Origin: SAR92 clade bacterium
Lineage (GTDB): Bacteria; Pseudomonadota; Gammaproteobacteria; Pseudomonadales; Porticoccaceae
Assembly: GCA_004211905.1 (NCBI GenBank)
Contig: SHBP01000006.1
Coordinates: forward strand, 1-64,000
DNA: 64,000 nucleotides
Reading direction: 5' to 3'
Shown here one piece after another: positions 36,657 through 62,604 of the stretch. The translations under genes were made by a program, and so were the position numbers. The notes beneath the pieces were generated by a model, which was not told the origin of the DNA, made no database searches, and saw only the letters and a list, made by a program, of their open reading frames with translations. Every line of letters begins with the position of its first letter. Position 1 is the stretch's first letter.

Positions 36657-36718
36657 ACACGCTCCACGGGACAAAACCCCCTGGTTCAAAACAAAGAAAT
36701 TTGCCAAGGAGAGCTTTT

Positions 36719-37831
36719 ATGAGCAAAGACAATTGTCCAAAATGCGAAAACTTAGCGCCTCCTTGGATGGCTACTTTCGCTGATATGGCCATCTTATTAA
36801 TGGCTTTCTTTGCACTACTATATTCTTTTTCAGAGGTAAATATCAGAGATAGGGCTCAGTTTGCTGCGACAATTCGAGCGGCCTTTGGTGTTGATCGAAA
36901 GATTGTCATAGACGATATTCCCACTGCAACAAGCTTAATAGATGAAAGTTTTACTGCCGTTATTGCAGAATCAAAGCCATTGGCAGAATTGTCCAAAGAG
37001 GCAAGAACGCCTGTTCGGCGATACCGAGCAAAGTACACCCAAACAGAGGACGGACTTGCGAAAAGTGAAATAACCCGAGTCAAATTAGAACGAACACTTG
37101 CTGAAGACATAATCAAGGGTGAGGTAGAGGTAAAGGCAGAGGATGAGCTTGTTGTCATAGAACTACGGTCTTTATTTACAACTGGCGGAAAGGGAGAGGA
37201 TTATTCTGCCTTAGAAAATGGGGCTAGAGTGAAACAGAGTGCAATTGATATCGCAGCAAAGGTGTTAGCAGTTAGCTCAGATAATGATGTTCAAATTGAC
37301 TTTCGTGCTCGGGATTATAGCGCGTTTAAATCAGTAGCTGTTCAAAACAATTTTGATCTAGAAAGTCATTATGATCAGATACAGCAAATCCTTCTTGAAC
37401 AAAAGAGCAAAGATAGCCTGAAGGTTTTTTTGAAGGACGATCTTTTGACGATTCGGTTGGCTAGTCAGGATTCTTTCGATTCAGGGCAGGCTGGACTTAA
37501 GCCTAAAGCTAAAATTCTTTTAGACAAGATAGGGGCAATTTTAACTACCTCGAAAGGGACAATAAGAGTCGAAGGCCATACTGATGATATGCCGCTAATG
37601 TTTAGTGAAAGCTTTGTCTCTAACTGGGATCTCTCTGCGGCCCGAGCTTCTTCGGTTGCAGCAGCCTTGATTAATAACTCTGCAATTTCCCAGTCCCGCT
37701 TGGTGATAGCTGGATTTGGCGATTCAAGACCTTTGAAGGGAAACAAAACACCAGAAGGAAGATCGTCGAATCGTCGAATAGAAATAATTGTGAGTGCCGG
37801 GACAAAGAGGGACATCACCCCAAATGGATGA
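36719..37831 (+). CDS. pomB: Flagellar stator subunit, MotB/PomB family, copy 1
   Basis: The B subunit anchors the stator to peptidoglycan. From ATG 36719 (AAGGAGAG just upstream) it has 370 residues. A cytoplasmic tail with CPKC precedes the single membrane helix WMATFADMAILLMAFFALLYSFSE, where Asp22 is the predicted ion-binding residue. AAFGVDRK just after the helix resembles PomB. The C-terminal OmpA/MotB domain has VEGHTDDMPL, NWDLSAARA and GRSSNRRIEIIV. The region between helix and OmpA domain (about residues 45-260) is longer than in typical MotB/PomB (about 310 aa in total). Confidence 0.88.
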   Translation: MSKDNCPKCENLAPPWMATFADMAILLMAFFALLYSFSEVNIRDRAQFAATIRAAFGVDRKIVIDDIPTATSLIDESFTAVIAESKPLAELSKEARTPVRRYRAKYTQTEDGLAKSEITRVKLERTLAEDIIKGEVEVKAEDELVVIELRSLFTTGGKGEDYSALENGARVKQSAIDIAAKVLAVSSDNDVQIDFRARDYSAFKSVAVQNNFDLESHYDQIQQILLEQKSKDSLKVFLKDDLLTIRLASQDSFDSGQAGLKPKAKILLDKIGAILTTSKGTIRVEGHTDDMPLMFSESFVSNWDLSAARASSVAAALINNSAISQSRLVIAGFGDSRPLKGNKTPEGRSSNRRIEIIVSAGTKRDITPNG

Positions 37832-38939
37832 GACGCTTGCGCTGAAAAATAGCAATGAGGACTGCAAACCGTGCCCGAAAGGAGTTCCAATGTGGATGGC
37901 TACTTTTGCAGATATGGCCATTTTATTAATGGCCTTTTTCGTACTATTAATCGCATTTAATAAGACGGAGAAAGGAGGTGCCCAGATGACGGCTGGGCCA
38001 GAGGAAGGTAATTTTGGTGTGCAAAATGAATTGCCGGTTGTCAGTCGCCCCAAAGGTGAAAGCGCTATAGCTAAATCGTTTTCACCAGCTCAAGTTGATA
38101 GGACTTTGGTTAAAATTGTAAGAGAGGTGACTACAGATATCAGGCCCCCCAAAGTTACTCCGTTGACGAGGCTGAATAGAGAGAAGAAGGTTAAGCGCAA
38201 CGCAGAAATGGAAATGCTGGAGAATGCGCTTGCTAAAGAAATTGCTACTAACAGAGTCAGAGTGATTGCGGGTAAATTTAAAATTATTGTTGAAATTCTA
38301 TCTCAGAGTATTGATGGCGAAGACAGACAAGGCGATTACAAGGCTTCTGGCTTTAAAGTGCGAGAGAGGGATCTGCAGATATATGCAAAAGTAGCAGAGG
38401 TTCAAGCCGAAACCGAAGCAGAGTTGGAAATTCAACATGTTAGACAAAAGATGAGAGATGGCGAGCCGGATAGTTCAGGGACACAAGCTTCAATGGAGGA
38501 TCAGTTTGAAATCGTTAAGCAAGCACTTGCTGCTGAGATAAACAGAGGGCAGGCTGAAGTGATTAAAGATGAAGAGAGAATCATAATCCGTCTTGCAGAG
38601 CACGGGTCCTTCCCTAGCGGGAGTGCAATAATCAAGCCTAGCTTTAAGAGAATTTTAAGTAAGCTTGGATTATCGCTACAAGAGGTAAGCGGGGAAATTA
38701 TGGTTGAAGGACATACTGATAGTGTCCCCATGGCGTACAACGAGAGGTTCAGATCTAACTGGGACCTCTCTGCTGCGCGAGCGGCTGCGGTAGTTGATTA
38801 TTTGTTAGGGGTCACACCTCAAGTGCGAGGACGCATTATGGCAAGTGGAATGGCCGATATTAGGCCGCTCATGACCAACGATACGCCTATAGGGAGGTCT
38901 CGTAATCGGCGTATCGAGGTAATTGTGAGCGCTTCCTGA
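37824..38939 (+). CDS. Flagellar stator subunit, MotB/PomB family, copy 2
   Basis: A second, diverged B-type subunit of 371 residues, overlapping the stop of copy 1 by 8 nt. It keeps the tail cysteines (CKPCPKG), the helix WMATFADMAILLMAFFVLLIAF with Asp30, and the OmpA domain (VEGHTDSVPMAYNERFRSNWDLSAARA, GRSRNRRIEVIV). Its linker is as long as in copy 1 but quite different in sequence. Both copies keep every residue needed for ion conduction and peptidoglycan binding, so both may enter stators with the single PomA-like protein. Confidence 0.85.
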   Translation: MDETLALKNSNEDCKPCPKGVPMWMATFADMAILLMAFFVLLIAFNKTEKGGAQMTAGPEEGNFGVQNELPVVSRPKGESAIAKSFSPAQVDRTLVKIVREVTTDIRPPKVTPLTRLNREKKVKRNAEMEMLENALAKEIATNRVRVIAGKFKIIVEILSQSIDGEDRQGDYKASGFKVRERDLQIYAKVAEVQAETEAELEIQHVRQKMRDGEPDSSGTQASMEDQFEIVKQALAAEINRGQAEVIKDEERIIIRLAEHGSFPSGSAIIKPSFKRILSKLGLSLQEVSGEIMVEGHTDSVPMAYNERFRSNWDLSAARAAAVVDYLLGVTPQVRGRIMASGMADIRPLMTNDTPIGRSRNRRIEVIVSAS

Positions 38940-39660: not shown

Positions 39661-40908
39661 TTGTTTTTATCAATAGTAGCAATTAGCGGAGCAATCTATA
39701 GAAGAGAGGCAAGGAAGCCAATACTTTTTAAAAAGGGTACTGAAAAGTTGCCAGAAATAAATACAATTATTGGAATGAGTCCTGAGATCAAAGCTCTTAG
39801 AGAGCTAATTAAAATGCTTGGTCCCAGCGATTCAACAGTTTTGATTCTGGGCGAAAGTGGCACAGGGAAAGAACTGGTTGCCAAAGCACTTCATGAATGC
39901 TCTGGGCGAGCTGCAGGCCCATTTATACCAGTAAACTGTGGCGCGATTCCTAGAGATTTACTTGAAAGTGAACTATTTGGGCACAAGAGAGGCTCTTTCA
40001 CTGGCGCCATATCCGATCGAAAAGGACGTTTTCAACTAGCAGATAAGGGGACATTGTTTCTCGATGAGATTGGAGACATGTCTTTGGATCTCCAAGTTAA
40101 GTTGCTCAGGGTATTACAAGAAAGGAAGGTAGACCCGGTCGGGTCCTTAGGGGCTATTCCAATAGATGTCAGAGTTATTGCTGCAACGCATCAAAATATT
40201 GAATCGCTCATTGATGAAGGACGATTTCGAAAAGACTTATACTACCGATTAAATATCATGCCCATTGAAGTTCGGCCTTTAGCTGAGAGAGCTAAAGATA
40301 TTCCGATGCTTATTGAACACTTCGCCAGACAACAAGCTCAGGGAGCGAAAGCGCCGATTTCGATATCGAGGGCTTCGATGGAGCTCCTGCTAAGTTATGA
40401 TTGGCCTGGAAATGTTAGGGAACTTTCTAACTTGATTGATAGGTATACCACTCTTTATCCTGAGCAGGAGGTTGACCTCCGGTCTGTCCCAGTAAGTATG
40501 GTTCCAGTTGGAGTACGAAAATTAATGGAGCGGAATTGTATAGGGATTGAAAACAGAACTCAGAAAGGGAACATCGTGACAAAGTCATCTGTTCGGAAAC
40601 TAAAATTTGCCGAGGAGGAAAACTTTGGGTTATCGAAAGTTAAAATGAAAGATAAAGCCCTCTCGATTTTGGATAGCCCTATCGATGAAATACAAAGAGT
40701 TATTGCTCTCGCGCAGGGCGAACAAGACTTTCCAGATGAGGGCGTTGAGCTTAAGCAACATCTGCTCGAAATTGAAACCCGCCTTATACAAGAGGCGCTA
40801 AGTAAGGCAAAAGGCAACGTATCCAAAACAGCACGGCTCCTAAGCTTACAACGTACCACGTTAATCGAAAAAATTAATAAGTATGGTATACAACAAGTAG
40901 CCCGTTAA
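39661..40908 (+). CDS. Sigma-54-dependent activator, FleQ/FlrA-like, lacking the N-terminal domain
   Basis: A bacterial enhancer-binding protein expected to start the flagellar cascade. The AAA+ domain begins near residue 35 (IIGMSPEIKALRELI); Walker A is GESGTGKE (64-71), the sigma-54 contact loop is GSFTGA (111-116), and Walker B is GTLFLDEIGDMS. After a long linker there is a Fis-type helix-turn-helix (IQEALSKAKGNVSKTARLLSLQRTTLIEKINKYGI). FleQ/FlrA normally have an extra N-terminal domain of about 120-140 residues; here the frame opens just after a stop and begins at a TTG (39661), so this domain is absent. Total 415 residues. Confidence 0.8.
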   Translation: MFLSIVAISGAIYRREARKPILFKKGTEKLPEINTIIGMSPEIKALRELIKMLGPSDSTVLILGESGTGKELVAKALHECSGRAAGPFIPVNCGAIPRDLLESELFGHKRGSFTGAISDRKGRFQLADKGTLFLDEIGDMSLDLQVKLLRVLQERKVDPVGSLGAIPIDVRVIAATHQNIESLIDEGRFRKDLYYRLNIMPIEVRPLAERAKDIPMLIEHFARQQAQGAKAPISISRASMELLLSYDWPGNVRELSNLIDRYTTLYPEQEVDLRSVPVSMVPVGVRKLMERNCIGIENRTQKGNIVTKSSVRKLKFAEEENFGLSKVKMKDKALSILDSPIDEIQRVIALAQGEQDFPDEGVELKQHLLEIETRLIQEALSKAKGNVSKTARLLSLQRTTLIEKINKYGIQQVAR

Positions 40909-42947: not shown

Positions 42948-44699
42948 ATGGCCGATTTAGCAGCACCTCAGCAAGATGTAGTATTAAATACAGTCGCACA
43001 GTCACCGGGCGCAGCGCAGCCGCAGAGCATGGTGGCAAAGCAGGCAGGACAAATGGCACAGCAGGCAAATGAGGGTCGGCCTGATGCGGTGATTCGAAAG
43101 GTGATATCTCAGCCAGCGGTTAAGCGAGCTATGCCAGCTATTATTGCATTGATGACAGTTGTGCTATTTGCACTTCTCTATTCTTGGAGCCAAGTTTCTC
43201 CTTACAGGACGGTCTATCCAGGTTTATCAGAGGCAGATCGGCAGACTGCATTTGAGGCACTCTCAAGCGCAGATTTTAAAGCGAAAATAGACATTCAAAC
43301 AGGGGAACTAAAAGTCCCATCTTCTAGATATCATGAGGCTCGAATTTATTTGGCTTCCCGAGGGCTACCAAAAAGCACAGTAGCGGGCAGTATCGGATCA
43401 ATGAGTGAAGAGGCAGCGATGACGACTAGCCAATTTATGGAACAAGTTCGATATATTTCTGCGATTGAAATAGAGCTCGCTGCTAGTGTGGCGAAAATTT
43501 CTACGATTGAGTCAGCGCGGGTTCATCTAGCCTCCCCAAAGCAAAGTGTTTTTGTAAGAAACCGCGAGGCCGCAAAGGCATCAGTGGTTGTCTCGCCCTT
43601 TCCGGGAAGGGTGGTTTCTGAGTCTCAAGTACAGGCAATTATTCATTTGATTGCTTCGAGTGTTCCATATTTAGCAACAGAGAATGTTTCCGTCGTGGAC
43701 CAGCGAGGGCAATTGCTGACTGCTAGCGAAGGCTCGAGCTCTTTATTGATGAGCACTGAACAAATGGCGCATAAGCAAAGTATGGAGGACACCTACCGCA
43801 ATCGAATTGATGCGTTTTTGTCACCAGTTGTCGGGATCGGTAATGTACGCTCGGAAGTTGATGTCCAAATGGATTTTACTGAAATTGAATCAACGTATGA
43901 AGAATATGATGGAAATGACAATGGCCCTCATGCCCGGTCGGAGACTTTAAGTCTGGAGCAAAAAGGGAACTCAAGAGCATCAGGAATCCCTGGCGCTGCC
44001 TCAAATGTAGCGTCTGTGGAAAATGCTGATGAAGGCGCCCCTCTTAGCGATAATACAGTAAGCAGCAAAACAACACGTAACTATGAAATGGATAGGGCAA
44101 TAAGGCACGTTAAGCGCCAAGGGGGAACAGTTAAAAGGATCTCAGTTGCGGTGGTGATAAACCCGCCAGCAGTGGAGCTTTCGGACGGTGACGTTCAAGA
44201 AGACTCTGGCAACAATGCTGGATTTTCAGATGTTGAGATAGAGCGGTTTTCTAACCTAGTCAAAAGCTTAATTGGTTTCGATGCGAATCGAGGAGACGTA
44301 GTTACAATTGTCTCGACTCGCTTTGAACCCCCCGTGGTAATTGAGCCAATATCAGAGCCTTGGTATGAAAATAGCCAGATCACTAGCTTGATCAAAACCT
44401 CCTCTATAGCCATCGCATTTGTTGCTTTATTATTTTTAGTTGTAAAGCCAGCTATTGGCGTTTACTCATCCGCGGCTACTGGCAACGCAGCAATTACTGC
44501 TGCTGAAGCAAGAAATAGCTACGGTATACCTCCCACCCAAGCTTATGGAGAAGGGACACCAAACCAACCAACTGGAATCGGAGAGAGTGCCACTTCTGTA
44601 AACACCTATGATAGTAAGGTTAATGCAGTTAGATCTCTAGTGGCAGAGGACTCTGGTCGAGTTGCTAATGTACTTAAAAAAATGATTCGAAACGGCTAA
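42948..44699 (+). CDS. fliF: Flagellar MS-ring protein FliF
   Basis: FliF forms the MS ring in the inner membrane. Two membrane segments are visible: PAIIALMTVVLFALLYSW near residue 65 and TSSIAIAFVALLFLVVKPAIGVY near residue 490. The ring-building motifs lie between (VYPGLSEADRQTAFEAL, ARIYLASRGLPKS, ELAASVAKISTIESARVHLASPKQSVF). The C-terminal VRSLVAEDSGRVANVLKKMIRNG binds FliG. Its 583 residues are normal. Confidence 0.97.
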   Translation: MADLAAPQQDVVLNTVAQSPGAAQPQSMVAKQAGQMAQQANEGRPDAVIRKVISQPAVKRAMPAIIALMTVVLFALLYSWSQVSPYRTVYPGLSEADRQTAFEALSSADFKAKIDIQTGELKVPSSRYHEARIYLASRGLPKSTVAGSIGSMSEEAAMTTSQFMEQVRYISAIEIELAASVAKISTIESARVHLASPKQSVFVRNREAAKASVVVSPFPGRVVSESQVQAIIHLIASSVPYLATENVSVVDQRGQLLTASEGSSSLLMSTEQMAHKQSMEDTYRNRIDAFLSPVVGIGNVRSEVDVQMDFTEIESTYEEYDGNDNGPHARSETLSLEQKGNSRASGIPGAASNVASVENADEGAPLSDNTVSSKTTRNYEMDRAIRHVKRQGGTVKRISVAVVINPPAVELSDGDVQEDSGNNAGFSDVEIERFSNLVKSLIGFDANRGDVVTIVSTRFEPPVVIEPISEPWYENSQITSLIKTSSIAIAFVALLFLVVKPAIGVYSSAATGNAAITAAEARNSYGIPPTQAYGEGTPNQPTGIGESATSVNTYDSKVNAVRSLVAEDSGRVANVLKKMIRNG

Positions 44700-53365: not shown

Positions 53366-54135
53366 TGGAAGTTTTAGTTTCTGAAGTTATTGACTATTTT
53401 TACAGACTACTTTGGCCGATGGTTCGAGTGTCATCTTTTCTGTTAGCAGCGCCTTTCTTTTCTTTACGGGCAGTGACAGTGCGAATACGTGTTTTGTTAG
53501 CGGCTATCTTAACGTGGTTCGTTTTTCCTCTTGCCGATTGGCCGACTGTCGACCCAATTACAGCCTTAGGGCTCAAAGAAATGGTTGTCCAAGTTTTTAT
53601 TGGGGTCTGTATGGGCCTTACATTGCAGATAGTTAATGCTGCACTGATCGTAGGCGGACAAAGCATATCCACCTCTATGGGATTGAGTATGGCCAATATG
53701 ATTGACGCGAATATGGGGAACGTGCCAGTTATCTCGCAGTTTATAGTTGTTTGTTCAACGCTCATATTCCTAGGCCTTGGGGGACATACCATTATTATTT
53801 CTCTGTTACTTGAGAGCTTTAGATTACTTCCAATAGGAGACTTAATTGAAATCCGAGCTTTGGCCGTGTTGGTTATAAAGTGGAGTTCTATGATATTTGT
53901 TGGCGCTGTTTTGCTGGCAATGCCTATGATGGCGTCATTGCTTTTAATCAATATGGGGTTGGGCGTTATTACCAGAGCGGCACCTGCCCTAAATATTTTT
54001 GCTGTGGGGTTTCCCGCAATGATCCTTGCTGGAATGTTGTTGTTGATGATGTCAATGCCAAGTATAGGTTTTCGTATCACATGGCTATGGAAACAAGCAT
54101 TTGATGTGTTAGGTCAAGTAATAGGGGTCATTTAA
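53365..54135 (+). CDS. fliR: Flagellar export gate protein FliR
   Basis: A 256-residue protein with six predicted membrane segments that completes the FliPQR gate. FLLAAPFFSLRAVTVRIRVLLAAILTWFVFP and GGQSISTSMGLSMANMIDANMGN are conserved FliR blocks, as is LGVITRAAPALNIFAVGFPAMILAGMLLLM. It starts at the fliQ stop (ATG 53365) and touches flhB. Confidence 0.97.
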   Translation: MEVLVSEVIDYFYRLLWPMVRVSSFLLAAPFFSLRAVTVRIRVLLAAILTWFVFPLADWPTVDPITALGLKEMVVQVFIGVCMGLTLQIVNAALIVGGQSISTSMGLSMANMIDANMGNVPVISQFIVVCSTLIFLGLGGHTIIISLLLESFRLLPIGDLIEIRALAVLVIKWSSMIFVGAVLLAMPMMASLLLINMGLGVITRAAPALNIFAVGFPAMILAGMLLLMMSMPSIGFRITWLWKQAFDVLGQVIGVI

Positions 54136-55286
54136 TGTCAGATGAGTCGTCAAGCGAAGAACGTACTGAAGAGCCTACGGCCAAGCGACTTGAAAAAGCA
54201 AGGGAGGACGGTCAGGTTGTTCGTTCTCAAGAACTTTCAGTCGCAGCCATGATGATTGGCGCAGCATTGTTTATGTATTTGTTTGGCAGCTATTTTCTCA
54301 TAAGGACTGGAGAAATATTTGCCAGGGGGTTTGTGTTTGACCGTAAGGATGTTTTTGACTCGCATCTATTGCCTACGACGTTTGGGACTCATGCCCTAGA
54401 AAGCATGATAGTTGCGCTACCCCTTTTTGCGCTCACCGTCGTTATTGCAGTCGCTGCTGCTGGATTATTAGGAGGCTATAACTTATCTATAAAAGCGCTC
54501 GCGCCAAAAGCAAGCAAGCTGAATCCTATACATGGATTAAAGCGGATATTCGGGATGAAGGCTTTGGTGGATCTATCTAAAGCTGTGCTCAAGTTTGGGT
54601 TGGTAGGTTCGGTTCTTTATTTTGTAGTTAGTAGCAATTTCGATGCATTAGTTGGTTTGGGCTTTAGCGAGGTGCAAGGAGCAATGTCTGGAGCAGGTGA
54701 GATGATTGCAAATGGAGTCGTGCTAGTAACCTTGACATTAATTGTAGCCGCTGGAATTGACGTACCGTATCAGGTTTATGAGCACAATAAAAAAATGAAA
54801 ATGACTAAGCAAGAGATAAAGGACGAGTTTAAAGACACGGAAGGCCGCCCTGAAGTAAAGGCTCAAATCAGGCGTAAACAAAGAGAAATGGCGATGGCTC
54901 TAATGATCGAAGCGGTAGGTGACGCAGATGTAATTGTTGTTAACCCAGATCATTTTGCTGTGGCGCTTAGCTATGACCCTTCAAGTGCCGGGGCTCCGAT
55001 GTTGGTTGCCAAAGGTGTAGATTTCTTGGCCCAAGGAATTCGAGAGAGAGCTAAAGAGGAGGGGGTCCCAGTGTTTTCTGCTCCTACGTTAGCGCGAGCG
55101 CTTTATTTTACAACAGATATCCAAGAACCCATTCCAGAATCACTATATTACGCAGTTGCTCAGGTTATTGCTTATGTATTTAGTCTAAATAGTTTTAATA
55201 AAGGGGCAACAGAGGCAGATAAGCCGAATCCCGAAGTCCCGTTGGATATGCGATATAACACTGATGGAACATTGCAGCAGCCATAA
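54135..55286 (+). CDS. flhB: Flagellar export specificity switch protein FlhB
   Basis: FlhB closes around the gate and switches substrate class after autocleavage. It starts SDESSSEERTEEPTAKRLEKAREDGQVVRSQELS, typical of FlhB, and has four membrane segments. The autocleavage site NPDH (VIVVNPDHFAVALSYDP) is intact. Its 383 residues are normal. In Pseudomonas-type clusters flhA would follow; here two unusual genes come first. Confidence 0.97.
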   Translation: MSDESSSEERTEEPTAKRLEKAREDGQVVRSQELSVAAMMIGAALFMYLFGSYFLIRTGEIFARGFVFDRKDVFDSHLLPTTFGTHALESMIVALPLFALTVVIAVAAAGLLGGYNLSIKALAPKASKLNPIHGLKRIFGMKALVDLSKAVLKFGLVGSVLYFVVSSNFDALVGLGFSEVQGAMSGAGEMIANGVVLVTLTLIVAAGIDVPYQVYEHNKKMKMTKQEIKDEFKDTEGRPEVKAQIRRKQREMAMALMIEAVGDADVIVVNPDHFAVALSYDPSSAGAPMLVAKGVDFLAQGIRERAKEEGVPVFSAPTLARALYFTTDIQEPIPESLYYAVAQVIAYVFSLNSFNKGATEADKPNPEVPLDMRYNTDGTLQQP

Positions 55287-55309: not shown

Positions 55310-56761
55310 ATGACGAACTCAGATACGAGCAAGAATCTTGAACTTGACCAATTCCTTGATCACGGAGATATTTTGTATTCTCGTAAGGATAAAAATAATT
55401 TTCGTCAGTCCCTTGATGCCGTTACGGAACATTCTATGGGGCTTGCTGTTATTGGAGATAATGAAGCTACATTGACCCATTATTCGAGAATTTTTATTTC
55501 CAGATTACGAAAGGAAAGAGAGCTTAATTTGGAAATTTTCCCACCTACTAACACTGAAGAGCTGTTGAAAAAATTTAATCAATTACTGTCGCAAATGACA
55601 ATGGATCAAGCTCGTCAAAACTCCCCAGCACACAAGCCGGTTACACTTATGCTCGTCAATGATGCAAATGTAGTCGAACCTGAGCAGTGGAAATTATTAT
55701 TGCAGCTACTTTCCGATTTTCCTGGAATTAATATTCGTATGGTGTTGTTCATTAACAAGGCTACATGGCCACGGTATGACGAGACATTAATGCTACTTGG
55801 CAGAAATATCTATCGTTGGGATATCAAAATACCTTCTGTTTTGGAAGCCAAAGAATTGGTTGCGGCAGCTCAAGGAACGATATATGAGAGAGAAGCGACA
55901 TTGCTTCTCAGTAATGTCGGGCATCACCGGGTGACTACAGGAACAAAAACACAGGGAGAGCCAGATCAGATGGCCTTTCAGAATCAGCAAACCCAAACAG
56001 ATAAAAAAAACCAGAGAGACGGCTCAAAACAACAGTTTAGTGCAAAAGCTGATGCAGAAGGCATTAAGAAAGATCTAGGTAACTCAGAGAGGCTAGTCAG
56101 AGGTCCTGTTGTGGCAGGCCTAATGTTAGCATTCTTGGTTGTTTCGGTTTTGATCGCGGAATATAGCGATCTGTTAACGAACATTTCTGGCGAGCCAAAG
56201 AAAGAGGAAGTACATAATAAAATGCTCCCGAATTCTCTGTTACCTAAGGATAAAGATAATGAGAAAATAGAGCCTGATGATGTTGGGGGCCTACTCCCCC
56301 AGAATTCCTCTTTAGACGAGCGCTACCGGAGTGTTTTGTCTGATCCAAGACCAAAATCTGAAGCCGCTGTTTTACAAAGCCAAAGAAAAGCGGGGGATCT
56401 ACCTTCAGATTTTGAGATAGAAGAGATAGAAGGTGGAAATAAAGATAAAAAAGGCGAGCAAAACATAACCGGGCAATTGAGAAGCAGGGCTGCGCAGACT
56501 TTTTTCGTGCAGCATATCGTTTTAAACAGTAACGAGAGCATTGGGAGTTATATGGCTGAATTCCCGGCCCTCGCTAATGCGTGGATTTTACCCATTAGTT
56601 CAAAAGGTAACAAAAACTACGGAGTTATTTCGGGACCATTCTCCTCAAGGGACGAAGCTACTGAGTTTGTTGCCGGGCCGGGAGTCCCAGAAGATTTTTT
56701 TCTTTGGGAGGCAGGGCAATTAAGGGAGTGGTGCAAGACAGATCAGAAGTGTGATTTGTAA
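55310..56761 (+). CDS. DamX-like membrane protein with SPOR domain
   Basis: A 483-residue protein 23 nt after flhB. Residues ~15-205 look like an AAA/ExeA-type ATPase domain that has lost its P-loop (GLAVIGDNEATLTHY where a Walker A would be; VTLMLVNDANVV where Walker B would be), as in DamX. A low-complexity Gln/Lys/Asp-rich part leads to one membrane segment (about 266-284, VVAGLMLAFLVVSVLIAEY). After a polar periplasmic linker, residues ~397-455 (TFFVQHIVLNSNES to SSRDEATEFV) fit a SPOR domain, which binds denuded peptidoglycan. DamX normally acts in cell division. Its place in a flagellar operon suggests septum/pole targeting of flagellar parts. Similarity to DamX is by pattern only. Confidence 0.7.
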   Translation: MTNSDTSKNLELDQFLDHGDILYSRKDKNNFRQSLDAVTEHSMGLAVIGDNEATLTHYSRIFISRLRKERELNLEIFPPTNTEELLKKFNQLLSQMTMDQARQNSPAHKPVTLMLVNDANVVEPEQWKLLLQLLSDFPGINIRMVLFINKATWPRYDETLMLLGRNIYRWDIKIPSVLEAKELVAAAQGTIYEREATLLLSNVGHHRVTTGTKTQGEPDQMAFQNQQTQTDKKNQRDGSKQQFSAKADAEGIKKDLGNSERLVRGPVVAGLMLAFLVVSVLIAEYSDLLTNISGEPKKEEVHNKMLPNSLLPKDKDNEKIEPDDVGGLLPQNSSLDERYRSVLSDPRPKSEAAVLQSQRKAGDLPSDFEIEEIEGGNKDKKGEQNITGQLRSRAAQTFFVQHIVLNSNESIGSYMAEFPALANAWILPISSKGNKNYGVISGPFSSRDEATEFVAGPGVPEDFFLWEAGQLREWCKTDQKCDL

Positions 56762-56858
56762 GGTTGATAAATCAGCCCTAAAGATAACCCTTCACCTGCC
56801 GACTCTAACTATAATCAGGCCAAAAGCCTTCTTCAAATATCACGCTTTCGGGGAAATG

Positions 56859-57620
56859 ATGAACGATAAAAAATCTACTAAAAGTGAATCCCTTGATGAA
56901 GATCAAGAACACTTGGCAGAGGCAGAGGCAGAGGCAGAGGCAGAGGCAGAGGCAGAGGCAGAGGCAGAGGCAGAGGCAGCTGAAGTACAAACTGCAGACA
57001 AAGCGCCAGGCTTTGCGAGTAGTCGAATATTGTTCAGCAGTGCCGTTGCTTTTTGTTTAGGGGCGATTCTATTTTTGGCGATGGCTTTGCAAGTATCTAA
57101 CAAGGTTGGGCAAGTCGACGATATGCTCATTGCTCTGACTAAGCGAGCTGTCAATATGAATACTGCGATCTCTTCATTTGAGGAATTAAATCGGACGATT
57201 CAAGAGATGGGTGATATTCAAGAGCAATTCCTGGATCAGCAGAATCTATTGTTAATTGCTGTGAAAGAAATAAAAACCCAGATTCCAGCGGAGGCAGCGC
57301 AGAAGGTTGCTACGCAGAACGCTGCTGTAGGTTTAAAAATTAATCAGCTTGAAGACACCCTGAATAAGCAAAATCTAACTATTGCAAGCGTAACGAAATC
57401 TATGGTGGGGCTGTCTTCTCGTATTGAGAAATTTGAAGAACGTTTGGTTGACGTCAAAAGACTCACTGAGGATGTTGATGCATTAGTTACGTTGGAGCGC
57501 GAAGATTACCTAGAAGTATTAAAACGGCAGGCCATTCTGCAAGAAGCTCAAGGAGGCAAGCAGATTATCAAAGTGCCTAGGGATCCAGACTTGATTTTCT
57601 ATTCTATTAAAACACCGTAG
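56859..57620 (+). CDS. Membrane coiled-coil protein with Ala-Glu repeat, function unknown
   Basis: I do not recognise this protein. From ATG 56859 (GGGGA just upstream; a frame extends back to 56751 inside the previous gene) it has 253 residues. A Lys/Glu-rich start leads into ten Ala-Glu pairs (residues 20-39) encoded by a perfect hexanucleotide repeat. One membrane segment follows (about 58-77, SAVAFCLGAILFLAMALQV). The rest is mostly predicted coiled coil (DDMLIALTKRAVNMNTAISSFEELN, INQLEDTLNKQNLTIASV, GLSSRIEKFEERLVDVKRL). It follows the DamX-like gene by under 100 nt and ends convergently with fliA, overlapping it by 14 nt. A structural partner of the DamX-like protein is a reasonable guess. 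Confidence 0.65.
   Translation: MNDKKSTKSESLDEDQEHLAEAEAEAEAEAEAEAEAEAEAAEVQTADKAPGFASSRILFSSAVAFCLGAILFLAMALQVSNKVGQVDDMLIALTKRAVNMNTAISSFEELNRTIQEMGDIQEQFLDQQNLLLIAVKEIKTQIPAEAAQKVATQNAAVGLKINQLEDTLNKQNLTIASVTKSMVGLSSRIEKFEERLVDVKRLTEDVDALVTLEREDYLEVLKRQAILQEAQGGKQIIKVPRDPDLIFYSIKTP
56915..56979 (+). repeat. Hexanucleotide tandem repeat GGCAGA, ten copies
   Basis: Ten perfect consecutive copies of GGCAGA run from 56915 to 56974, followed by a partial copy (GGCAG). The repeat encodes alternating Ala and Glu. Since the unit is two codons, copy-number changes would alter the length of the Ala-Glu stretch without a frameshift. Confidence 0.95.
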
Positions 57621-58335
57621 GATCGTTGTTAATCAAGTTTTTCCGCAGCTTTTCTGTTATGCCTGATAGCACTTGACTGATACGAGACTCACTAACTTCA
57701 AGCACAGCACCTATCTCTCGCAAATTCATTTCTTCAACATAGTAAAGAGAAACTATTGTTTTCTCACGTTCAGGAAGTTGATTAATAGCTTCTGTGAGGG
57801 AGCCCATTAATTGTTCTTTAAGTAACACTGATTCTGGTTCATTTGAGTTACCTGCCGGTAGGTCTATAGACTCAGGCACTTGCGCTTCTAGGGATATGGT
57901 CTGAAACTGATTAGCATGATTTCGTTCCTTTTGATAAACATCCATATCTTTATCCATGAAATTAGCCAGCTCTGCGTGATTCGGTTCGCGTCCCAGTTCA
58001 GCCGCCAGCTTATGGTGTGCTTCATTATGTTCTCGAATGTTAACCATTGCTGACCGAGGGAGATAAGACATTTTTCGAACTTGATCTAAAATTGCACCAC
58101 GAATACGATTTTTCGCGAAAATCTCAAAATCTACTCCTTTATTTGCGTCAAAGGATTTAGATGCTTCTATTAATCCAATAGTTCCTACCTGTATAAGCTC
58201 ATCGAGCTCCATAAATTTTGGAATTCTCCCTTGCAGATGTAAGGCGACTCGTTTCACCAAGCCAATATTCTTCAACAGAGTTTCGTCAGGTTGATTAATA
58301 CTTTGTATCTCGTTGTAGTCACTAATATTAGACAT
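57607..58335 (-). CDS. fliA: RNA polymerase sigma factor FliA (sigma-28)
   Basis: Sigma-28 directs late flagellar genes. Region 2 is visible as LIQVGTIGLIEASKSFDANKGVDFEIFAKNRIRGAILDQVRKMSYLPRSA, and region 4 as LPEREKTIVSLYYVEEMNLREIGAVLEVSESRISQVLSGITEKLRK. Its 242 residues are normal. It is the last gene of the flhA-flhF-flhG-fliA transcript, 9 nt from flhG. No anti-sigma factor flgM is present here. Confidence 0.97.
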   Translation of the reverse strand: MSNISDYNEIQSINQPDETLLKNIGLVKRVALHLQGRIPKFMELDELIQVGTIGLIEASKSFDANKGVDFEIFAKNRIRGAILDQVRKMSYLPRSAMVNIREHNEAHHKLAAELGREPNHAELANFMDKDMDVYQKERNHANQFQTISLEAQVPESIDLPAGNSNEPESVLLKEQLMGSLTEAINQLPEREKTIVSLYYVEEMNLREIGAVLEVSESRISQVLSGITEKLRKNLINNDPTVF

Positions 58336-58344
58336 GTTGTTATC

Positions 58345-59172
58345 CTACTTATTGGTTATATCTTGTCGCGCAAGGCGCTCTAAAAAGAACTGAAGGCCGC
58401 CACTTATGGAGGTTTTTGCTGTTAGCTTTGCAACTTCTTTTGCAAGTTTTTCAAAGTCTCTCGCCGCTGCACTTGACGGCGAAAACGTAAGCAAAGGTTT
58501 TGATGCTTTTATTGACCTAAGCACCATTTCATCTTCACGGATAGTCCCTAAGTGTCCTACCTCACCGCCTACAAAACGTTGGATTACAGATATAATTCCT
58601 TGGTAGAGGCGATTACCTTCCGCTGACGAAGGCATGCAGTTTGTAATAATTGATATATTATTTAGCTGATAATCTTGGATCATGACTTTAATAGAAGCGT
58701 AGGCGTCTGCAATCGAAGAAGGATCGTCTTTGACGATGACAAAGCGGTGCTGGCAAGCTCCTATAAACGTCATTACAGAGTCAGAGAGCCCTGCGGCAAG
58801 GTCCACAATCAAATAATCTAGATCATCTTCTATCTCTTCAAAGGATTGAATGATACCTGCCGCTTCTGAAATAGAAAGTGAAGCCATATGCTGAATGCCG
58901 CTAGACCCAGGGACTAACTGAACACCCATAGGACCCTCTATGATAATTTCTTGAAGAGTCTTCTCTCCGCTCAAAACATGACTAAAATTGTATTTAGCTC
59001 TGCAGCCAAGTGCTAACTGAGCATTGGCTAGTCCGAGATCTGCATCGAAAACCATTACCTTTTTGCCCTGTGAAGCTAGCGAAACCGCTAAATTTGCGGA
59101 TACCGTTGTTTTTCCTACGCCGCCTTTACCGCTAACAATCCCTATTACTTGTGTTGAATGTAGTTTTCCCAT
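58345..59172 (-). CDS. flhG: Flagellar number regulator FlhG/FleN (MinD-like ATPase)
   Basis: FlhG limits flagellar number and, in Pseudomonas, restrains FleQ. The deviant Walker A is SGKGGVGKTT (about residues 14-23); DADLGLANAQLALG and LIVDLAAGLSDSV are the MinD-type switch motifs, all intact. At 275 residues it is normal. The N-terminus is short and lacks the DQAxxLR helix with which some FlhG proteins activate FlhF GTPase. Next to it lies an FlhF with no GTPase motifs. Confidence 0.93.
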   Translation of the reverse strand: MGKLHSTQVIGIVSGKGGVGKTTVSANLAVSLASQGKKVMVFDADLGLANAQLALGCRAKYNFSHVLSGEKTLQEIIIEGPMGVQLVPGSSGIQHMASLSISEAAGIIQSFEEIEDDLDYLIVDLAAGLSDSVMTFIGACQHRFVIVKDDPSSIADAYASIKVMIQDYQLNNISIITNCMPSSAEGNRLYQGIISVIQRFVGGEVGHLGTIREDEMVLRSIKASKPLLTFSPSSAAARDFEKLAKEVAKLTAKTSISGGLQFFLERLARQDITNK

Positions 59173-59243: not shown

Positions 59244-60479
59244 TTATTTCGGGGCCAGTGGCAGGTTCGACAGGCTGTGCCTTGTTAAATCGGTGCCGTC
59301 GAGACTAAAGGCTTCGACTTCGAGAGAAAAATCTGACGAGGCCACAGAAATAGCGTTACCTGTAGCCATCAGAGCGTTGATTATTGGCCACGGATGAATA
59401 TCGCGGTCAAGCTGATTTAACATTACAGAGTCCCAGCTGATGCGGTCTCGTTTTAGATACCTGTTTACTGAGACTTCAGACGCATCGGCAGGAAGTAAGA
59501 GATGCTTTTTAGCCGTGGGAAATTCTGTGCAGATTTCTGTCAATTGATTTTGTAAATCGATACCTGACGTTTCAATTATAATAAGTTTGGGCTCTTCTAG
59601 CCCTGCAATGACATGCGAGAGGGCACTAGGCGTGCCAGCATGGTAGGTTTTGATTCCTGACTGTAAGCCCAATATCTGAGTTTGAGACCAGCCTTTAGTT
59701 TGCTCTGAGCTATAGTTAATAATACAGATGCCTTGTCCACTGTACTCACGAGATTTTTGCTTAGCTAGTCGCAAGGACATCAAAGCATTTTCTGAGCTAG
59801 AGCGTCCTGCAATAACATGGATTCCCTTCATGTCTTTAATAAGAGGATTGTGCTTGATTGCACTGCCAAGGGACTTAGAAATGAGCTTTATGGCTGAATT
59901 AACTTCGCTTTCGTTGGCTATTAAGTTGCTAACTAGTATCCGTAATGGTGCCGGTATACCAGCGGCATCTAAGGAGCTAATCAGTGAGCCTAATTCAGGG
60001 GTCATTTTGTCAAGGGTTTGGCTGGTCTCCAGTTCCTGCGATATCTTAAGTTCGCGACGCATTGCGCTGAGTTCTTTTTTTACAAGATCAACTAACTCTC
60101 TTGTTTTTAGGTATTCTCTATCTTGTAATGATGAAATATCTTCATCGCAAAGGATGTTATGAGCAGGCATAACAGCGTCCCTAGGACTTCGGGTAGTAGG
60201 CTTTGATTCTAGGACCGCCGGTGAGTTGAAGATTTTTGATTCAATTACCTCATTAAAAGATGGCTCATTGGACTTGGCCGTATTGAAAATTCTTGATTTA
60301 TTCGAGTTTAAGGAGGTGGACGTTTCGTTTGCTTTGGCAGCCACGTCAATAGCCACAATTACTTCAGTCTGCTTTCTAGCTTTTTTGTTAGATATAACTA
60401 ACGCGTCGTTACCATACAGGGCGTGAACTTTTGCCATAGCCTCCTGGGTATCTTTTGCTAATATTCTTTGTAATTCCAT
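59244..60479 (-). CDS. flhF: FlhF-like protein with degenerate GTPase domain
   Basis: FlhF is an SRP-type GTPase that marks the site of polar flagellum assembly. The N-terminal B domain is recognisable (MELQRILAKDTQEAMAKVHALYGNDALVISNKKAR), as is an N-domain-like helical region (about 160-210). The G domain has lost its motifs: where GPTGVGKTTT should stand is AGRSSSENAL (224-233); the DTYR/IGA region is NYSSEQTKGWSQTQ; DTAG is ETSG (303-306); TKLD is NQLD (355-358). Length (411) and position between flhA and flhG fit FlhF. The frame is open and fold-forming hydrophobic strands are kept, so it looks like a pseudo-GTPase rather than a decayed gene. Confidence 0.85.
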   Translation of the reverse strand: MELQRILAKDTQEAMAKVHALYGNDALVISNKKARKQTEVIVAIDVAAKANETSTSLNSNKSRIFNTAKSNEPSFNEVIESKIFNSPAVLESKPTTRSPRDAVMPAHNILCDEDISSLQDREYLKTRELVDLVKKELSAMRRELKISQELETSQTLDKMTPELGSLISSLDAAGIPAPLRILVSNLIANESEVNSAIKLISKSLGSAIKHNPLIKDMKGIHVIAGRSSSENALMSLRLAKQKSREYSGQGICIINYSSEQTKGWSQTQILGLQSGIKTYHAGTPSALSHVIAGLEEPKLIIIETSGIDLQNQLTEICTEFPTAKKHLLLPADASEVSVNRYLKRDRISWDSVMLNQLDRDIHPWPIINALMATGNAISVASSDFSLEVEAFSLDGTDLTRHSLSNLPLAPK

Positions 60480-60495
60480 TGTTTATAACCTCAAT

Positions 60496-62604
60496 CTAAT
60501 TTTTTTGTTCTACATCGATGGTGGCCACTACATTGACCGCCTGATCTTCCGGAATTTCACTATAAGAAAGCACTGTTAGATCACTGATACGGTGTTTAAT
60601 GATTTTTGCTAACCATGGCCGGATTGCCGGAGAAACTACTAAAACAGCGGGATAACCCTGGTTTTCGACTTCTTGAGAATGTGTGCTTAGAGCCTGAAAC
60701 AAGCCCTCCGCCAGCTTTGGTTCAATGACCAAATTCTGAGGGTTGCTACTTTGTTGTATGACGTTGTGTAGCACTTGCTCTAGTGAGGGGTTTAAGGTCA
60801 TTACCGGCAAACTATCGTTCACATCAACAAGGCTTTGCATAATCATACGACCCAGCCGAGGTCGTACAGCGGCGGTTAGCTCATCAGCATCTTGGGTTTG
60901 ACTGCTTTCAGTGGATAACACCTCTATGATTGTTCGCATATCCCTGACTGACACACCATCATCGAGTATGTTTTGAAGAACTCTAGTCACCGTAGCAAGG
61001 GGAAGCTTGCCTGGTACTAGATCCTCTACAAGTTTGGGTGATTTTGCTGCAACTTTATCAAGTAACTGTTGGGTCTCATCATGCCCTAATAGCTCAGGAG
61101 CATTATTTCGCAGTAGGGTATTCAGATGCGTTGCTATTGCTGTTGCTGAGTCTACTACCGTATACCCCAATGTCCGTGCATGATCTCGTTGGGAAGCCTC
61201 TATCCAAAGAGCATCTAGGCCAAATGCGGGCTCTTTCGTTGACTCCCCTTGCAAAACACCATGAACCTGTCCTGGGTTAATGGCCATTTCTTTTCCTATT
61301 CTAATTTCACCTTTGCCACGTACGACGCCATTCATAACGATGTGATAAACATCTGGGGACAGCTCTAAATCATCCCTGACTCTGATAGGTTGTATAAGGA
61401 AGCCTAACTCGGCTGAAAGTTTCTTTCGAATACCTTTCACGCGAGGAAGTAATTGTCCTCCGGTTTCAGGGTTAACTAAGGGTATAAGACCATAACCAAT
61501 ATCCAATCCGACTAGATCTACTTGCTCGACGTCGTCCCAATTAAGCTCCTCTAACACTGGGTCAGCATTCTCCGAGAGTAAGTTAGTGTCTAAATTATCT
61601 GCGGATGACGCTAAGGCATTATTTTGAGACAGCCAAACTGCCAAGGCACCAGAACCAAGACCAAGGCTAAGAAAAACTAAAGTTGGCATTCCAGGAACAA
61701 GTCCCAGGACGATAAGGATTACCCCTCCAATAATCAGCGCGACAGGATTGCCGAGCTGACTTTTTGCCTGCGTTGTCATCGACTCTGCTGTGGTTACCCG
61801 AGTAACGATAATCGCAGTAGCGAAAGAGAGAAGTAATGATGGAATTTGCGCAACGAGGCCATCGCCGATAGTAAGCAGGACATAAATTTCCCCAGCTTGA
61901 GAAAAACTTAGGTTATGCTGTGATAGGCCAATTATGATTCCACCGACAATGTTAATAATAAGAATTAGCAGGCCGGCGATAGCATCGCCACGAACAAATT
62001 TGGACGCACCGTCCATAGAACCGAAAAAGTCCGACTCCTGAGAAATCTCTTCTCTTCTTTTCTTGGCGGTGTCTTGATCAATGACACCTGCATTTAAATC
62101 TGCATCAATCGCCATTTGCTTGCCTGGCATCCCATCGAGAGTAAAGCGAGCAATGACCTCTGAAACTCGGCCAGCTCCTTTCGTAACAACAATAAAATTG
62201 ATAATCATCAGGATTGAAAAAATGATAAAACCAACCAAATAGTTTCCCGCAATTACAAACGCCCCGAAAGCCTCTATCACCTTGCCTGCAGCATCTGGGC
62301 CTTCATGCCCCTTAACCAAAACAAGACGGGTAGAAGCAACGTTCAGCCCTAGACGAAGCATGGTCGCTAACAGTAGAAGAGACGGAAAAGAAGAAAAATC
62401 TAATGGCTTAGAGCTGTTAATGGCAATCATAATTATTACCACACCCACTAAAATATTAAAGGTGAAGAGAAAGTCCAAAAGAAAGGCTGGCAGAGGCAGA
62501 ATCAGCATTGAAATAATGAGTAAAACTAAGAATGGAATTCCCAGGCCAGACAGTTCAATTTTTGACAGATCCTGTCGAATAGTTGACATCGAGGCGTTAG
62601 ACAT
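60496..62604 (-). CDS. flhA: Flagellar export gate protein FlhA
   Basis: The largest export-gate protein, with about eight membrane segments in its N-terminal half and a cytoplasmic chaperone-docking domain. ATMLRLGLNVASTRLVL, RFTLDGMPGKQMAIDADLNAGVIDQDTAKKRREEISQESDFFGSMDGASKFVRGDAIAGLLI is the conserved FHIPEP block. The C-terminal domain has GYTVVDSATAIATHLNTLLRNNAPELLGHDETQQLLD. Its 702 residues are normal. A sigma-54 promoter lies upstream at 62685-62699. Confidence 0.98.
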   Translation of the reverse strand: MSNASMSTIRQDLSKIELSGLGIPFLVLLIISMLILPLPAFLLDFLFTFNILVGVVIIMIAINSSKPLDFSSFPSLLLLATMLRLGLNVASTRLVLVKGHEGPDAAGKVIEAFGAFVIAGNYLVGFIIFSILMIINFIVVTKGAGRVSEVIARFTLDGMPGKQMAIDADLNAGVIDQDTAKKRREEISQESDFFGSMDGASKFVRGDAIAGLLILIINIVGGIIIGLSQHNLSFSQAGEIYVLLTIGDGLVAQIPSLLLSFATAIIVTRVTTAESMTTQAKSQLGNPVALIIGGVILIVLGLVPGMPTLVFLSLGLGSGALAVWLSQNNALASSADNLDTNLLSENADPVLEELNWDDVEQVDLVGLDIGYGLIPLVNPETGGQLLPRVKGIRKKLSAELGFLIQPIRVRDDLELSPDVYHIVMNGVVRGKGEIRIGKEMAINPGQVHGVLQGESTKEPAFGLDALWIEASQRDHARTLGYTVVDSATAIATHLNTLLRNNAPELLGHDETQQLLDKVAAKSPKLVEDLVPGKLPLATVTRVLQNILDDGVSVRDMRTIIEVLSTESSQTQDADELTAAVRPRLGRMIMQSLVDVNDSLPVMTLNPSLEQVLHNVIQQSSNPQNLVIEPKLAEGLFQALSTHSQEVENQGYPAVLVVSPAIRPWLAKIIKHRISDLTVLSYSEIPEDQAVNVVATIDVEQKN

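Follow-up and report, generated by a model that had tools for sequence, protein, structure and literature searches.

A natural FlhF orthologue with a rewritten nucleotide pocket, a probable pole-FliG tether in a SAR92 clade lineage

FlhF of Shewanella putrefaciens links FliG, through its N-terminal FliG-interaction domain (FID), to HubP, through its NG domain (PMC11236974). The contact between the NG domain and HubP in Shewanella is unaffected by GDP or GTP, and the region of HubP that binds FlhF excludes the TPR domain (PMC11236974). In Pseudomonas aeruginosa the FliG contact of FlhF is governed by GTP binding (PMC12713375). FlhF of Vibrio (PMC6092412) and of Pseudomonas (PMC12713375) has been reported to require GTP binding in order to function. 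The hydrolysis-dead Vibrio variant R334A works, while other GTPase-motif mutants of the protein lose function and 11 of 12 precipitate (PMC6092412). The role of GTP binding and hydrolysis by FlhF is described as unsettled, with requirements that vary by species (PMC12713375, PMC12826062).

Eukaryotic pseudo-GTPases use the G-protein fold as a binding module without nucleotide turnover; they belong to another branch of the superfamily than FlhF. The literature searched, which takes in few subscription papers, gave no report of an FlhF pseudo-GTPase. We describe an FlhF orthologue that has probably become one and that would act as a constitutive adaptor, tethering FliG to the pole without regard to nucleotide.

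The window, that is the whole stretch of 64,000 nucleotides that was analysed, is part of one contig (C35) of a SAR92 clade genome of 2.28 Mb that is 90.86% complete. The flhF-derived gene (59244..60479, minus strand) encodes 411 residues and is delimited by its open reading frame, an NCBIfam search, an AlphaFold2 model and Foldseek. It is flanked by flhA (60496..62604, minus strand), which scores over its curated cut-off, and by flhG (58345..59172, minus strand), in agreement with the first-pass annotation. The FlhG protein is a MinD-type ATPase with strong ParA/MinD family matches and an intact P-loop, and it has no DQAxxLR helix. The best family for the 411-residue protein is the NCBIfam FlhF family TIGR03499 (66.1 bits, under the cut-off of 174.15, which is passed in 0 of 50 genomes of the genus), and the Pfam SRP54 family does not match it at E<=1. 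By position, architecture and descent the protein is an FlhF orthologue. It shares with S. putrefaciens FlhF (8R9R, 9EN1) the FID-linker-NG architecture, the fold and the place between flhA and flhG.

The AlphaFold2 model, built from 29 sequences, has a mean pLDDT of 78.3; most of the NG domain is near 90 and the linker (residues 49-113) is below 50. The top PDB match of the model in Foldseek is 8r9r, the GDP-bound S. putrefaciens FlhF (E=1.5e-12, TM 0.78 by target length), and SRP GTPases rank after it. Retention of an SRP-type NG fold is thus confidently modelled. The FID (residues 1-46; 60342..60479, minus strand) is recognised from a phmmer match of residues 3-44 to 9en1 (E=0.0014), from the model and from column conservation. 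Residues 1-44 are modelled as a beta-alpha-beta-beta unit, which is the form described for the FID (PMC11236974). The N-terminal FlhF domain noticed in the first-pass annotation is therefore kept.

The nucleotide pocket sets the protein apart from S. putrefaciens FlhF. The loss of GTPase motifs noticed in the first-pass annotation is borne out by alignment, which places all the former motifs on the minus strand. The former G1 motif or P-loop (residues 225-232; 59784..59807) reads GRSSSENA in place of the canonical G-x-x-G-x-G-K-T. In the former G3 (residues 301-306; 59562..59579) D303 has become Glu, so that residues 303-306 read ETSG in place of DTxG, and the former G4 (residues 355-358; 59406..59417) reads NQLD in place of TKxD. 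Asp258 and Arg260, present in relatives, are replaced in the former G2 (residues 256-262; 59694..59714), and like G2 the G5 motif is gone, leaving the protein without the SRP-type GTPase motif set G1/G3/G4/G5. The phosphate-binding lysine, the magnesium-binding aspartate, the Asp/Arg of G2 and the base-recognition motif are thus all replaced in the sequence. We infer that the protein neither binds nor hydrolyses GTP and would be unable to form the GTP-dependent homodimer.

An alignment of 29 FlhF loci of the genus (g1) shows that the P-loop lysine is lost in five of them (the query, G015, G030, G032:C19 and G042) and kept in 24. The idea that relatives share the loss is borne out by these five loci, in which the replacement is of the same kind and so goes beyond chance. 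They form one clade in the FlhF tree (100/100), in a second FlhF tree (97 SH-aLRT) and in a tree of FlhG, FliA and FlhA (100 SH-aLRT). The lysine is also kept in the six sequences from the sister genera g46 and g50, in G071 (g23, another family) and in G032:C151, G032:C179 and G007 of the genus. A draw of 369 genomes from the class gave 25 matches at E<=1e-25, and 24 of 24 non-query FlhF proteins keep the lysine; two of the class sample have G3 variants (DTPG, DSSG) and four have SKxD. A draw of 390 genomes from the order gave 73 matches at E<=1e-20. The lysine is kept in 22 of 22 newly fetched loci (L150-L171), one of which is G071 again, and 43 lower-scoring genomes lie outside the fetched set. 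No sequence read from outside the five-species clade has lost the P-loop lysine or the G3 aspartate.

The comparison genomes are species representatives and several are fragmented; G001 and G047 are fragmentary, a second copy (G044:C55) was left out, and the G030 gene lacks its first part, cut by the contig end. The deep FlhF tree (G007, G071, G032b/c) is not relied on because of its long branches. A search of genome contigs also gave a weak match in one Ignavibacteriae MAG. In G047 (L030), a relative with an intact P-loop, flhF is split into two frames, through decay or an assembly error. G007 (L084), a member of the genus, has a very divergent flhA-flhF-flhG cluster; its FlhF scores 28 bits to the query, keeps the P-loop and has DTAT at G3. 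G032, a MAG rated 5% contaminated, holds three different flhF loci (L071, L072, L086), two of them with an intact P-loop; the contigs that carry these two copies are 5.5 and 4.9 kb long and have their own flhA and flhG.

Nine columns are fixed in the five-species clade for a residue unseen in the 24 relatives. Six of the nine differences are in the pocket (S226R, G230E, K231N, R260Q, D303E and R356Q), an enrichment with a hypergeometric P=1.9e-5 (20 pocket columns among 220 eligible) that serves as a guide, since the G motifs were used to choose the pocket columns once the nine differences had already been listed. Among 42 columns that are invariant in the 24 relatives, 230, 231 and 303 are changed in all five species to one shared residue; column 263 differs in all five as well, and columns 258 and 262 in some of them, with residues that vary. 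W264, Q268, G275, L287, H326, S334, W349, S351 and W364 are unchanged. Outside the pocket, I129 and W153 are changed in every clade member that covers them, and columns 12, 18, 228, 252, 255, 266 and 273 in one or two members. The FID has 32 of 46 columns invariant in the four clade members that cover it, and 11 of 13 FID columns that are invariant in the 24 relatives stay unchanged in the clade. The six pocket replacements, being common to all five species, most simply date from the ancestor of the clade. This pattern does not look like decay and points to a pocket that has been rewritten.

The motifs were not lost together. Canonical FlhF, with TKxD and GQxVPED, is found in genera g4, g5, g7, g48 and g49, which belong to the same family and have a different flagellar cluster. 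In the cluster of the lineage g1/g46/g50/g23, flhB-OrfX-OrfY faces fliA-flhG-flhF-flhA and a gene for an LPP20 lipoprotein lies close by. Every FlhF read from this lineage lacks G5. Nearly all g1 sequences, and those of g50, have a G4 motif that resembles SRLE or SRFD; in g46 it is eroded, and in 8 of 11 g23 sequences it is TKxD- or SKxD-like. The P-loop-intact FlhF proteins of the lineage (the rest of g1, g46, g50 and g23) resemble the query in their cluster, in W264, H326, W349 and W364, in the loss of G5 and in an FlhG without DQAxxLR; they differ in keeping GxxGxGK[ST] and the G3 aspartate. G1, G2 and G3 were lost in the five-species clade, after the erosion of G4 and G5 in the wider lineage. 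The first-pass annotation had treated the motif loss as a single set; the replacements stand, but the change in G4 predates the loss of the P-loop, as eroded G4 motifs occur with a kept P-loop in g1, g46 and g50.

None of the 31 FlhG N-termini read from g1, g46, g50 and g23 shows the DQAxxLR enhancer helix. It is present, exactly or as a near variant, in 20 of 23 FlhG proteins read from the class sample. It is also absent from 5 of 10 FlhG proteins encoded beside a canonical FlhF in the sister genera (one of these genomes, G105, was seen in part), so its absence is not diagnostic. Pseudomonas FleN is likewise reported to be without this helix (PMC12713375). We rejected helix loss as a signature of P-loop loss, since the helix is missing throughout the lineage and also beside the canonical FlhF of some relatives. 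The sequences suggest an order in which the FlhG helix and G5 went first, then G4, and then the P-loop with G3.

Selection was assessed from pairwise Nei-Gojobori dN/dS, which in four loss pairs is 0.122 (G042-G032a), 0.145 (G000-G015, with dS near saturation), 0.219 (G015-G030) and 0.281 (G000-G030, with dS 0.87). These values are well below 1, as had been proposed for a protein under constraint. Seven intact pairs give 0.056-0.186, a range exceeded by two of the four loss pairs (G000-G030 and G015-G030), which we count against the tether reading. The G domain gives 0.11, 0.15 and 0.28 in three loss pairs (0.28 for G000-G030) against 0.02-0.23 in six intact pairs. Scattering the observed differences at random over 2000 genes left 10, 0 and 0 without a stop codon for three loss pairs. 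For the FlhF/FlhA distance ratio the median of 6 loss pairs is 5.09 and that of 135 intact pairs is 4.65; the median FlhF/FlhG ratio is higher in loss pairs (2.94 in 10 pairs, against 2.12 in 152 intact pairs). The frames are open in all five species, that of G030 being cut by the contig end. Judged by these comparisons the flhF gene of the clade is under purifying selection, and the raised dN/dS and FlhF/FlhG ratio make a mild relaxation in part of the clade possible.

Decay offers another explanation, in which the gene is drifting until polar control, or the flagellum as a whole, disappears; many species of the genus have apparently lost the flagellum. The open frames and the dN/dS far below 1 make this unlikely, as do the FlhF/FlhA ratio, which resembles that of intact relatives, and pocket replacements that are fixed rather than scattered. 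The source genome also encodes the rod, hook, L-ring, P-ring, FlgK, a flagellin-domain protein, the motor, FliE, FliF and FlhA. Drift would nevertheless fit the 20 of 50 genus genomes without an FlhF match (E<=0.001), the widespread erosion of G4 and G5, the split gene of G047 and the two loss pairs that exceed the intact dN/dS range. A pocket that binds a different ligand, another nucleotide or an anion, would leave the protein a switch, only not a GTP switch. R226, E230, N231, Q260, E303 and Q356 are invariant in all five species despite an identity of only 45-46% between the query and two of them, and relatives that have the P-loop lysine but have lost G4 and G5 suggest that base specificity was relaxed first. 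We nonetheless hold such a ligand to be improbable, the usual phosphate and magnesium contacts having gone with the P-loop lysine and the G3 aspartate, and no alternative motif being recognised in the pocket.

The gene could also be a specialised paralogue, with a second and intact FlhF in an unassembled part of the genome. Searches of the source genome (90.86% complete) with SRP54 and TIGR03499 gave no second FlhF among the matches listed. SRP54 strongly matches two other genes, which from their sizes are Ffh and FtsY, and weakly matches the P-loop of FlhG. The same holds more widely, as the best matches in the source genome, G015, G030 and G042 are in each case this gene and two others (Ffh and FtsY by size and score pattern), with no further FlhF-like gene. 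The incomplete assembly and the two P-loop-intact genes that G032 has besides the motif-lost one speak for a paralogue; set against this, the motif-lost gene holds the standard place between flhA and flhG, and the extra copies of G032 sit on short contigs with their own flhA and flhG. We regard a hidden second FlhF as very unlikely.

Two unusual genes beside flhF had been proposed to make up for the loss of the GTPase. OrfX (55310..56761, plus strand) follows the gene that we take, from its sequence and place, to be flhB (54135..55286, plus strand), which has homologues at the same place in relatives. OrfX has an AAA+-like N-terminal domain, a hydrophobic segment read as a transmembrane helix by eye and in the model, and a C-terminal SPOR domain. 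Its model has an AAA+-like fold (pLDDT 67), whose matches are weak (E=1.1e-5 for the best). None of the 15 OrfX sequences read of 24 aligned has a Walker A motif. The SPOR domain is over its cut-off by 0.4 bits in the source-genome search and under it in a Pfam scan; of 18 members, 11 have a match with E<=0.01. OrfY (56751..57620, plus strand) is a probable transmembrane protein with a likely coiled region, and precedes fliA (sigma-28; 57607..58335, minus strand), which is over its curated cut-off. The N-terminal part of OrfY is a long Ala-Glu repeat (AEAEAE...) in the source species, and the relatives read differ there. SPOR domains bind septal peptidoglycan, and the layout of OrfX is DamX-like. 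The SPOR domain makes it possible that OrfX marks septal or new poles in this flagellar cluster, which we give as a lead. Both genes accompany P-loop-intact FlhF across g1, g46, g50 and g23 (the very divergent cluster of G007 has no match to either). OrfX thus predates the loss of the P-loop, neither gene tracks it, and the proposal of compensation is not supported.

The contig carries much of a flagellar gene set. Beyond flhA lie genes for FlgA, the rod, hook, L-ring, P-ring, FlgK and a flagellin-domain protein, and on the other side genes for the motor, a sigma-54 activator, FliE and FliF (the MS ring; 42948..44699, plus strand, from family search). These structural and motor genes make a working flagellum plausible. 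One MotA/ExbB-type gene is followed by two consecutive MotB-type genes (36701-37831 and 37794-38939), both with MotB_plug and OmpA domains. The sigma-54 activator (39661..40908, plus strand, from family search) has about 35 residues before its AAA+ domain, and so almost no N-terminal regulatory domain, and sits where the flagellar master regulator is expected. The FleQ N-terminal domain was found neither in the source genome nor in 7 of 7 genomes of g46, g50 and g23; with this activator in the cluster, a FleQ-like partner for FlhG may still exist. FipA (PF10975) was found in 0 of 50 genus genomes and in only 2 of 20 of a further set, which says little, since several genomes with canonical FlhF also lack it. 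A FimV-type C-terminus is present in the source genome over the curated cut-off, in a short protein of 445 residues. Four of the loss species have FimV-type reading frames of 446-659 residues, and the remaining one has a 146-residue fragment. Such frames are about 720-880 residues long in 15 flagellated P-loop-intact relatives, with the exception of G024 (578 residues); several others are fragments.

The first-pass annotation had read the protein as a pseudo-GTPase whose role passed to other genes. The first part agrees with motif loss in a kept fold, purifying selection, a shared loss and no second FlhF among the matches listed in the source genome; the reliance on neighbouring genes is not supported. 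Because the FID and much of the NG domain are constrained, FlhF itself seems to be functional still, with no need of nucleotide. In a constitutive tether the FID would hold FliG and, through FliG, FliF, and the nucleotide-free NG domain would bind a partner at the pole, for example FimV/HubP. The freeing of FliG for completion of the C-ring, and the number of flagella, would be set by FlhG and by competition from FliM/FliN, or by protein levels, and not by GTP hydrolysis. FlhG, whose own P-loop is intact, would be the likeliest agent releasing FliG for FliM/FliN binding.

The same motifs have been broken in engineered Vibrio and Pseudomonas FlhF mutants. The Vibrio mutants mostly lose function or solubility, so a nucleotide-blind FlhF would need compensating changes; in the clade of the query the broken motifs are natural and fixed. 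Two further points count against a tether: the short FimV of the source genome may lack the FlhF-binding region known from Shewanella, and one of the five loss genes comes from G032, which is contaminated and carries P-loop-intact flhF genes.

On balance we lean, by a little, toward a natural and selected FlhF without a nucleotide switch, in which the pocket has been locked, probably filled by side chains, since a single ancestor and in which placement is achieved by a constitutive tether between pole and FliG. The findings suggest that the flagella of the five species are placed without a GTP switch. If the tether is real, placement by FlhF can do without the GTP cycle. A lineage that has kept a selected FlhF architecture and no nucleotide pocket would be a natural experiment that splits the tether role of FlhF from its role as a switch.
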